A stretch of DNA of 64,000 nt from Alphaproteobacteria bacterium (GTDB taxonomy: Bacteria; Pseudomonadota; Alphaproteobacteria; Rhizobiales; Aestuariivirgaceae). Shown piece after piece: positions 48,441 through 55,461 of this stretch. The stretch lies in contig JAHEFB010000013.1 in the NCBI GenBank assembly GCA_024640405.1, positions 1-64,000 of the forward strand, given 5' to 3'. Position 1 is the first letter of the stretch. Each line of letters begins with the position of its first letter. Position numbers and translations under genes: made by a program. The notes below the pieces were generated by a model that was given only the letters and a program-made list of their open reading frames with translations, did no database searches and was not told the DNA's origin.

Positions 48441-48836
48441 ATGATTTCTCGGATATTCAAGTTGAGCGCAATATTAATGGTTGCGCTGGCGCTGTTTCTG
48501 TTGGCGCCTGTTAGCAGCCACTTCACTTCACAGGCGCAAGCGGCTTCGTGTAATTCCCTTGCGAAAGAATTCAAACGCAAGGGCCGACCTCGTTTCATGC
48601 GAGTGGTCAATCGCAATCGATCAATCGCCAACTATTTCAATTCGACCCTGAGACGCCTGAAGAGGAAATCAGCGCCGACGAGAGCGGAAATGGGCAAGGC
48701 CTACCGTGTGACATCGCGCAGCTGCTCGTCCAGCAAGTGCAGATCTGATGCCAAAAGAATATATAATGCGGCATTGAAGCTTCATGCGTACAATCGCCGG
48801 TGGGCCAGATCCGGTTGTCGCGGTACGCTGAGTTAG
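48441..48836 (+). CDS. hypothetical small secreted basic cysteine-containing protein
   Basis: Signal peptide (ILMVALALFLLAPVSSHFTSQAQA), Arg/Lys-rich mature part with Cys residues. Confidence 0.6.
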   Translation: MISRIFKLSAILMVALALFLLAPVSSHFTSQAQAASCNSLAKEFKRKGRPRFMRVVNRNRSIANYFNSTLRRLKRKSAPTRAEMGKAYRVTSRSCSSSKCRSDAKRIYNAALKLHAYNRRWARSGCRGTLS

Positions 48837-52769: not shown

Positions 52770-53558
52770 TTAGATATCCAACTCTACAATGACAGGAACG
52801 TGGTCGGATGGTTTTTCCCATCCTCGAACGTGTTTGTCTATTCGACAGCCGATCGCCCGGTCGGCAGCTTGCGGTGACAGCAGGATGTGATCGATTCTTA
52901 TGCCGTTGTTTTTCTGCCAGGCTCCTGCCTGATAATCCCAGAATGTATAAATGCCGTCTGACAGGTCGAAACTACGCACCGCGTCGCTGAAACCCAGTGC
53001 GGTAAGTTCTCTGTACTTTTCCCGGGTTTCCAGCCGGAACAGGGCATCCTCGGTCCACATGGCCGGGCGTGCCGCGTCACGAGCCTGGGGAATCACATTG
53101 TAGTCGCCAAGAAGCGCAAACGGTTCTTCCAGTTTCAGGTTGCTTTTGGCATGGGCAATCAGCCGATCCATCCAGGCCAGCTTGTAAGGATATTTTTCCG
53201 TCTCGACCGGATTGCCGTTCGGCAGATACAGGCATCCGACCCTGCAGACACTGTGGTCGCCAACGACCAACGCTTCTATGTAGCGTGCCTGCTCGTCCGT
53301 ATCATCGCCCGGAAGCCGGCTGGTCACGTCTTCGACTGGCCTGAGAGACAGGATGGCGACGCCATTGAAGCCCTTCTGTCCATGGGTGGCGACATTATAG
53401 CCGATATCCTCAAAGGCTTGGCGTGGAAAACCCTCGTCGACGGACTTGATCTCCTGGAGGCATGCGACATCGGGGCGGGCTTCGTTGAGCCAGGACACAG
53501 CCGTCTCCAAACGGGCTTTGATCCCATTGATGTTCCAGGTCGCGATCTGCATGGGCAC
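52770..53558 (-). CDS. xth: exodeoxyribonuclease III
   Basis: QIATWNINGIKARLETAVSWL, CLQEIKS, GDYNVIPQARDAARP, KPSDHVPVIVEL. Confidence 0.94.
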   Translation of the reverse strand: MPMQIATWNINGIKARLETAVSWLNEARPDVACLQEIKSVDEGFPRQAFEDIGYNVATHGQKGFNGVAILSLRPVEDVTSRLPGDDTDEQARYIEALVVGDHSVCRVGCLYLPNGNPVETEKYPYKLAWMDRLIAHAKSNLKLEEPFALLGDYNVIPQARDAARPAMWTEDALFRLETREKYRELTALGFSDAVRSFDLSDGIYTFWDYQAGAWQKNNGIRIDHILLSPQAADRAIGCRIDKHVRGWEKPSDHVPVIVELDI

Positions 53559-53680: not shown

Positions 53681-55033
53681 TCATTCACAACGATCAAGTT
53701 GTCTTTCGCGTTTGCGATGCTCTCGACGCGCCTTGCGTCTGGATACGTTGCTGCACCATCTGAGATGTCTTTCGTAACTGCCACTCCATCGGCGGCCGCC
53801 GAAACCACAATCGAGAGCACGGGCTTCGCGAACTTGCTGTACCGCGGCGCGGGCATATTGTCGGCAATGCGCGCTGACAGGGCGATCACGTCGCGATGCC
53901 GATAAACGACAATTGCGAATTTGCTGATTCCTCGTATTCAGCAAAGTAGTGGCTTCGCGCGGTCCGATTCGCGTGCACAATTGCGTCTGGCGCACCCGGC
54001 TGGATGACCAGCGTTCGCCCTCGAATCCGCATTTTGACAAACGAGCCTGACGAACCTGTCGTATGCTCTGACCCGCAAAGTTTCGGCAAAAACGGCCCGA
54101 ACGAGTGTCGTCAGCGACCAATTCTTCAGTTTCGTTAGCTTCCGGCTCCGGCAAGACGGTTTCTTCTTCACTTTGTTCCCGGGTCGCAACCTGACGTTTG
54201 CACCTGTCCAGTTCGTTGTCGCGTGCGGCGCGGGAGCCATTGTAAGCGGAAGACGGACTACGCATGCAGAAATTGAAATAAGTGCTTCTGGTATATCCCC
54301 ACAGGCTGCCGGACAAACGGCAATTCAAGCGGTTGTTCTCGTCGTTTTGAACAAGCGCACGGGTTGCGTAATTGTTGCATGCCGCGACCTTGGCGGAATC
54401 CGGTTGAGTTTGTCCGGTGGTTTCCTGCTGGCCACTTTCATCTTGCGGCAACGGTCGCAAAGATGGCTTCGGCTTCGGCAAAACGGTAATTCTCTCCTGA
54501 TCAGCCCGCGGTGGCGGTGGAACAGGAAGAGGCTTGACAATGGTTTGTCTGGCAGGCTTTTCCGGAGCGGATTTTTCTACGACGGTCGGTTTTCTGGGGG
54601 CAGGTGTGGGGACCGGTCTTGCGGTAATGGCGGGCTTTGGCGGAACCCGGGTAGGTGCCGGCTTCGCTGAAACAGCCGGTTTTGCGGGGGCCGGTGCCGG
54701 ATCATCTGTACGGGTAACCGGACCGGATGTCGAAAGAACACCCGAAATGCAGCATGTATCAGAACGTTTTGGCGGAACACCGGTTTTGAGAGCGCACATG
54801 GCTTTTGGCCCCTTGGCGCCGGGCCACGAATATGTCCACGCACGGCATTGCCCATCCTTTTTGCATGCATTTTCGCACAAATCGGGATTGGGAGCCGACA
54901 GCTCGATGGTCTTGTAATCCAGGCCCGGCCGATCGGTCGACCCGTCACGTGCGGCGATTGCAACCGACGACAGAAAAATTACGCCGAAAACAGCGGCTAT
55001 GAAAGGCCGAAGCCAGAAATGTGGGTTCTGCAT
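53681..55033 (-). CDS. secreted PAN/Apple-like domain protein with Pro-rich linker and three tandem 4-Cys modules
   Basis: Signal peptide, PAN-like DLCENACKKDGQCRAWTY...AMCALK, Pro/Lys/Thr-rich linker, C-x18-C-x17-C-x21-C three times. Confidence 0.85.
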   Translation of the reverse strand: MQNPHFWLRPFIAAVFGVIFLSSVAIAARDGSTDRPGLDYKTIELSAPNPDLCENACKKDGQCRAWTYSWPGAKGPKAMCALKTGVPPKRSDTCCISGVLSTSGPVTRTDDPAPAPAKPAVSAKPAPTRVPPKPAITARPVPTPAPRKPTVVEKSAPEKPARQTIVKPLPVPPPPRADQERITVLPKPKPSLRPLPQDESGQQETTGQTQPDSAKVAACNNYATRALVQNDENNRLNCRLSGSLWGYTRSTYFNFCMRSPSSAYNGSRAARDNELDRCKRQVATREQSEEETVLPEPEANETEELVADDTRSGRFCRNFAGQSIRQVRQARLSKCGFEGERWSSSRVRQTQLCTRIGPREATTLLNTRNQQIRNCRLSASRRDRPVSAHCRQYARAAVQQVREARALDCGFGGRRWSGSYERHLRWCSNVSRRKARREHRKRERQLDRCE

Positions 55034-55131
55034 GAATAATATGGCGTCCCTGAATATGCCCTTCAGGAACGATTTTGCGCACGATCATGGCGCAATTGTG
55101 GGCTCAAGCCAATCAGGCACCTTCAAATTGA

Positions 55132-55461
55132 TCAGATTGAAAAACTCGTACCACAACCGCATGACGCGGTTGCGTTTGGATTGTTGACCTGAAACTGCGC
55201 GGCCATGAGGTCGTCGACAAAGTCAACTTCCGATCCCAGGACATAGGCCAGTGATATGGAGTCTATTAAAAGTGTTGCACCGTCGCGCTCGACAACTGCA
55301 TCACCTTCTGCAGCTTTGTCATCAAGTTCGAACTCGTATGAAAATCCCGAACAACCGCCTCCATTGACCGCCAGCCGCAAAGCGGTCTTGTCGGCTTCAC
55401 TGGCAACAATTTCCCGGATCCTGCGCGCAGCGTTTTCGGTTAGTGTTATTGCAGCAGACAT
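55132..55461 (-). CDS. erpA: iron-sulfur cluster insertion protein (HesB/ErpA-type)
   Basis: LRLAVNGGGCSGFSYEFELDD, C-terminal NPNATASCGCGTSFSI. Confidence 0.93.
   Translation of the reverse strand: MSAAITLTENAARRIREIVASEADKTALRLAVNGGGCSGFSYEFELDDKAAEGDAVVERDGATLLIDSISLAYVLGSEVDFVDDLMAAQFQVNNPNATASCGCGTSFSI

Follow-up and report, generated by a model that had tools for sequence, protein, structure and literature searches.

A 450-aa secreted protein encoded in the window (the whole 64,000-nucleotide stretch of DNA analysed here) contains three copies of a repeat module, and the analysis supports the view that this module is both constrained and unnamed. It could well be the basis of a new Pfam-type family. 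The proposed definition consists of four invariant cysteines with C1-x18-C2 spacing, Y/F-A after C1 and G-x2-W after C2, and it holds for the window modules and for 202 distinct copies. The parts of the protein and its neighbouring genes are listed in Table 1.

Table 1. Features of the module protein and adjacent genes, in window positions. The module E-values come from a profile of which all three module sequences are themselves rows.
Feature	Position	Strand	Basis
450-aa secreted PAN_4 + three-module protein	53681..55033	-	translation and ORF list
Putative signal peptide, residues ~1-28	54950..55033	-	read from sequence: hydrophobic core, A-I-A then A-R-D
PAN_4 domain, residues 33-83	54785..54937	-	Pfam PF14295
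Disordered Pro/Lys/Thr-rich linker, residues ~104-207	54413..54724	-	pLDDT <50 over most of 103-207
Module 1, C219-C278	54200..54379	-	spacing 18/17/21; profile match E 8.1e-20
Module 2, C316-C375	53909..54088	-	spacing 18/17/21; profile match E 2.0e-18
Module 3, C390-C449	53687..53866	-	spacing 18/17/21; profile match E 7.2e-23
Presumed xthA-type exonuclease III gene, syntenic neighbour	52770..53558	-	tblastn of neighbours on fetched loci
Presumed erpA-type Fe-S insertion gene, upstream syntenic neighbour	55132..55461	-	tblastn of neighbours on fetched loci

The N-terminal signal, PAN segment and Pro/Lys-rich linker described in the initial annotation were all recovered, using sequence, Pfam and the structure model. 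The putative signal-peptide region forms a helix at residues 8-29 in the full-length structure model. At the N-terminus, PAN_4 is matched with an E-value of 2e-14 and 53.8 bits, against a curated cut-off of 27. The domain contains cysteines 53, 57, 63 and 80, and cysteines 94 and 95 follow directly after it. When the full-length model was used as the query, Foldseek matched mainly this PAN part; the top matches were apple domains of factor XI and prekallikrein, with a probability of 1.00 but an E-value of ~0.09 (0.087) and low TM. The linker is poorly conserved and variable in length among orthologues, which within the genus share 53-70% identity with the 450-aa protein. Upstream of the start codon, positions 55033-55090 (reverse strand) resemble the in-frame N-terminal extension of orthologues (MIVRKIV.EG...), out of frame here; this stretch is possibly a conserved leader and not coding sequence. 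Elsewhere in the window, positions 48441-48836 (forward strand) encode an unannotated 131-aa basic Cys-containing protein, apparently secreted, whose sequence pattern is unrelated to the module.

In the translation, the module cysteines fall at residues 219/238/256/278, 316/335/353/375 and 390/409/427/449, confirming the three identical C-x18-C-x17-C-x21-C quartets first noticed in this protein. Module 3 ends one residue ahead of the stop codon. The modules had been called tandem, which is true of modules 2 and 3, separated by 14 aa, but not of modules 1 and 2, which are split by an acidic linker of 37 aa. The shared [YF]-A after C1 (at +3/+4) and the shared G at +4 and W at +7 after C2 were correctly described. 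An R and an [LI] do precede C4 as claimed, but their spacing is R-x3-[LI]-x2-C and not R..[LI]. A chance cysteine pattern, or a low-complexity Arg/Ala-rich sequence containing no domain, would fit the Arg- and Ala-rich composition of the modules, yet its probability is negligible. When 12 cysteines were placed at random in the same 240-aa stretch, three equal spacings never arose in 200,000 trials and any two equal spacings arose only 11 times. About 200 copies also retain unsubstituted cysteines, and with a module model at pLDDT 97.8 and conserved synteny this reading is already refuted.

Conservation was assessed across 202 distinct modules from 74 proteins in a profile alignment; the modules came from a profile search of loci, and these figures are only partly independent, as the profile was built from an earlier alignment (A1) whose sources are among the loci. 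A1 itself was gathered with a cysteine/A/W pattern, so the apparent invariance of A and W there is partly selected. Among the 202 modules, the four cysteine columns hold Cys or an alignment gap and never a substitution, the gaps belonging to 10 incomplete modules. Other conserved columns are W29 (96%), Y/F6 (95%), A7 (90%), R55 (86%), G26 (82%) and H36 (78%), and the median pairwise identity among modules is only 31%. The 18/17/21 spacing is modal, found in 146 of the 192 modules having all four cysteines. In this complete set the C1-C2 spacing is x18 in 190 modules, and the C3-C4 spacing ranges from 20 to 27, with 21 in 164. That the repeat is constrained, as first proposed, is borne out by cysteine spacing retained in all orthologues of the genus and in paralogous modules numbering in the hundreds. 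The mean net charge of a module is +5.7 (91% are at +1 or more) and Arg makes up 14.5% of residues, a richness that may partly reflect genome composition.

Structure prediction gave a confident module fold with the same helix pattern in all three copies. Modelled alone by AlphaFold with A1 as the input alignment, module 3 reaches a pLDDT of 97.8 and contains three helices at 2-19, 33-41 and 45-62. In the full-length model the helices lie at residues 213-235, 249-258 and 261-289 in module 1, at 311-332, 346-356 and 358-382 in module 2, and at 388-406, 420-428 and 432-449 in module 3. In module numbering the first cysteine, C3, lies where helix 1 begins, and the second, C22, directly after that helix; the third, C40, lies where helix 2 ends and the fourth, C62, where helix 3 ends. 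With helices 1 and 3 antiparallel, C1 would be next to C4, and at the opposite end C2 would be next to C3; judged from these helix ends in the model, the disulfide pairing is most likely C1-C4 and C2-C3. Co-loss of cysteines could not be used for the pairing because no aligned module has another residue at a cysteine column. The predicted three-helix bundle comprises helix 1, a Gly/Trp turn, a short helix 2 and helix 3. The two disulfides would clamp helices 1 and 3 together at either end, leaving the remaining, mostly Arg-rich surface free to vary.

Searches of family collections returned little beyond the PAN domain. The whole protein and its C-terminal half gave no other Pfam match and no NCBIfam match. 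When 50 and 94 diverse modules were scanned singly against Pfam, scattered matches appeared in one to three members only, the best value being E 0.0011 in 2 of 94. Single scans of 50 modules against NCBIfam and of 94 against PHROGs also gave scattered matches, none of them recurrent. A module profile search of PDB sequences found nothing credible; a match to 3oio, an AraC-type regulator (best E 0.24), was judged to be chance. Foldseek, which is weak for 63-aa helical bundles, found no PDB match to the module model at E <=10, and its single match to viral models, at E 9.5, is meaningless. The plasmid and phage collections contained no module match, and no description of the module was found in the literature. 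The initial annotation had placed the module outside named families, and neither a significant match of each module to an existing domain nor a convincing recurrent match in Pfam, NCBIfam, PHROGs or PDB sequences was found. The module looks uncatalogued at the sensitivity of these sequence, profile and Foldseek-PDB searches. It might nevertheless belong, as a remote and so far unrecognised relative, to some known family of helical cysteine-rich domains, for instance the LprI-type inhibitors: LprI too is secreted, contains Cys, carries W, R and C motifs and occurs in the same genomes. This is very unlikely, given the failure of Pfam to yield a convincing recurrent match and of Foldseek to yield a PDB match, and LprI (PF07007) membership itself was rejected on an hhalign profile-profile probability of 0.8% over a 17-column match.

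Matches to the 450-aa protein occur in 30 genomes of 60 relatives, the nearest named relatives being Anderseniella MAGs (L023, L024). With the module profile, 55 genomes out of 298 from the same order proved to carry modules, representing 34 of 123 genera. They are rare in the rest of the class (7 of 387 sampled genomes, two of these from the same order), and strong matches outside the order but within the class come from three genomes (G801, G815 and G832). Outside the class, phylum samples of 200 and 349 genomes contained no member. A Bacteroidetes match (L026) was set aside as chance, its frame being broken by stops near an HU-like ORF, and two others are doubtful: the G143 match (E 3e-4) lies in a frame of 46 aa that contains a stop, and the G057 match (E 6e-5) includes two stops. 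The genome that contains the window encodes two further module proteins, one at C84 with two modules and one at C29 with one clear module and a divergent second.

The module gene lies between two genes that we take, from general knowledge of their sequences, to be an xthA-type exonuclease III gene and an erpA-type Fe-S insertion gene. Among family loci retrieved together with flanking sequence, nearly all have the former beside the module gene; the latter adjoins it in several genera. Both xthA and erpA are intracellular housekeeping genes. Counting modules across orthologues at this syntenic locus, a check proposed at the outset, gave 1, 2, 3, 4 or 6. In a tree of 46 syntenic modules, which has 63 columns only and many unresolved forks, the first modules of most orthologues cluster together (15 rows, SH-aLRT 93), with the six-module proteins outside this cluster. 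The tree suggests that extra modules may have been added behind the first. Most pairs of positional orthologues within the genus share 52-90% identity (60-90% for module 1, down to 48% for module 3), and different module positions are 19-50% identical (~19-35% for module 1 against the others). The three copies are therefore old. Recent tandem duplication in this genus was rejected, since each module resembles its positional orthologue more closely than it does the adjacent modules.

Proteins of the family carry between 1 and 8 modules, and the links within an array are usually 6-10 residues long. The longest arrays seen, with eight modules in one protein, are those of L066 and L036. By a crude export-signal test, 69 of 74 module proteins pass, and of the 5 that fail, 3 are truncated by the end of a contig. 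PAN_4 is fused to modules repeatedly, and other partner domains include PAN_1 (L087, from another order), TPR (L080) and FG-GAP repeats with two modules (L067). WSC is joined to two modules in one relative (L040), and a weak H-type lectin match accompanies modules in L068. Single-module proteins without a detected PAN domain also exist, for example L049 and L003. A second, uncharacterised Cys-rich segment, W..G.C....C.C...C..Y..G....W..GC..P...C..R, follows the modules in other genera, at the C-termini of L009, L011, L012, L016, L019, L020, L007 and L040; it is absent from the window's genus and has no Pfam match where scanned. An uncharacterised LPVDVC ... CGK ... FC ... ACHGKC domain follows two modules at the C-termini of L002 (the C84 paralogue of the same genome), L052 and L073.

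PAN domains in general make contacts with other proteins and with carbohydrates, and they have one common fold with WSC domains (PMC9024836). SiWsc3, a lectin with three tandem WSC domains, binds glucan (PMC9024836). Together with the partner domains, the export-like signals and the basic charge, these contacts suggest a non-catalytic binding module used in arrays; because proteins too are bound by the partner domains, a ligand of the glycan or polyanion kind is one option only. The existence of the module, its conservation, predicted fold, export-like signal, array variation, basic charge and partner domains are computed, and we infer the disulfide pairing, the binding function and the ligand class. 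We give an even chance to the reading that this is a real ~60-residue extracytoplasmic three-helix module with a non-catalytic binding role, arrayed for avidity and directed at a polyanion or glycan. The exported protein would hold its PAN domain and module array at opposite ends of the flexible Pro/Lys tether, and module copy number would set avidity at the cell envelope. The most plausible ligands would be acidic envelope or matrix polymers, such as surface polysaccharide, LPS or extracellular DNA. A bolder version, in which the module represents both a new fold family, three-helix and disulfide-locked, and a new polyanion/glycan-binding class, expanded in this Hyphomicrobiales-type order as surface arrays, is tentative and somewhat doubtful.

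The array could instead be a protein-protein module that docks an envelope protein or holds a complex, with the Arg-rich surfaces incidental. PAN/apple domains often bind proteins (those of factor XI and prekallikrein are the top Foldseek matches of the N-terminal domain), and each module position keeps its own sequence within the genus, as expected if each had its own partner surface. However, the variety of partner domains and the 1 to 6 copies at the syntenic locus are easier to understand as polymer avidity, and no partner gene was seen to co-vary, the adjacent xthA and erpA being intracellular; protein docking is unlikely, if a serious contender. A mechanical spacer, whose rigid rod-like units do no more than hold the PAN domain away from the cell surface, is quite unlikely. 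Short regular inter-module links and the near-continuous helices across modules 2-3 in the model (358-382 then 388-406) would suit such a rod, but the ~100 disordered residues between the PAN domain and the modules in the window defeat rigid projection. The single-module proteins without detected PAN also count against a spacer, and conserved H36, R55 and W39 would be surprising in one, though they may be structural.

The module is sharply defined and readily searched, and it renders intelligible dozens of secreted proteins that lack annotation, in an alphaproteobacterial order with environmental and host-associated members. If it does bind surface polymers, the copy number of 1 to 6 at a conserved locus would be a natural series for the study of avidity. 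Its small size, two predicted disulfides, helical build and permissive surface could also make the module useful as a binding scaffold. Secreted tandem cysteine-rich modules are a known architecture, so the proposed mechanism is not without precedent.

Among known systems, LprI/DUF1311 (PF07007) resembles the module in being exported and Cys-containing, with a Trp/Arg-rich core and late cysteines, and in occurring in the same genomes; it differs in spacing and length, and the hhalign probability is low. Disulfide-stapled helices are also found in the twin-CX9C (CHCH) helical hairpins, with nested C1-C4/C2-C3 pairing, and in the Helicobacter cysteine-rich Sel1-type repeats. The resemblance of the module to these two is a lead only: the module has C-x18-C-x17-C-x21-C spacing and an extra middle helix, and no Pfam or PDB match was returned. 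The PAN/Apple domains (PF14295 PAN_4 and PF00024 PAN_1) are, as is proposed for the module, extracellular, disulfide-stabilised binding domains, and they occur in the same protein and are repeatedly fused to the module. However, PAN is a beta-sheet with one helix, whereas the module is predicted to be all-helical and has another cysteine pattern and no sequence match. WSC domains (PF01822), and tandem-WSC glucan lectins such as SiWsc3 (PMC9024836), offer an analogy as small disulfide-rich secreted tandem modules, although WSC has the PAN fold and the module is a predicted three-helix bundle.
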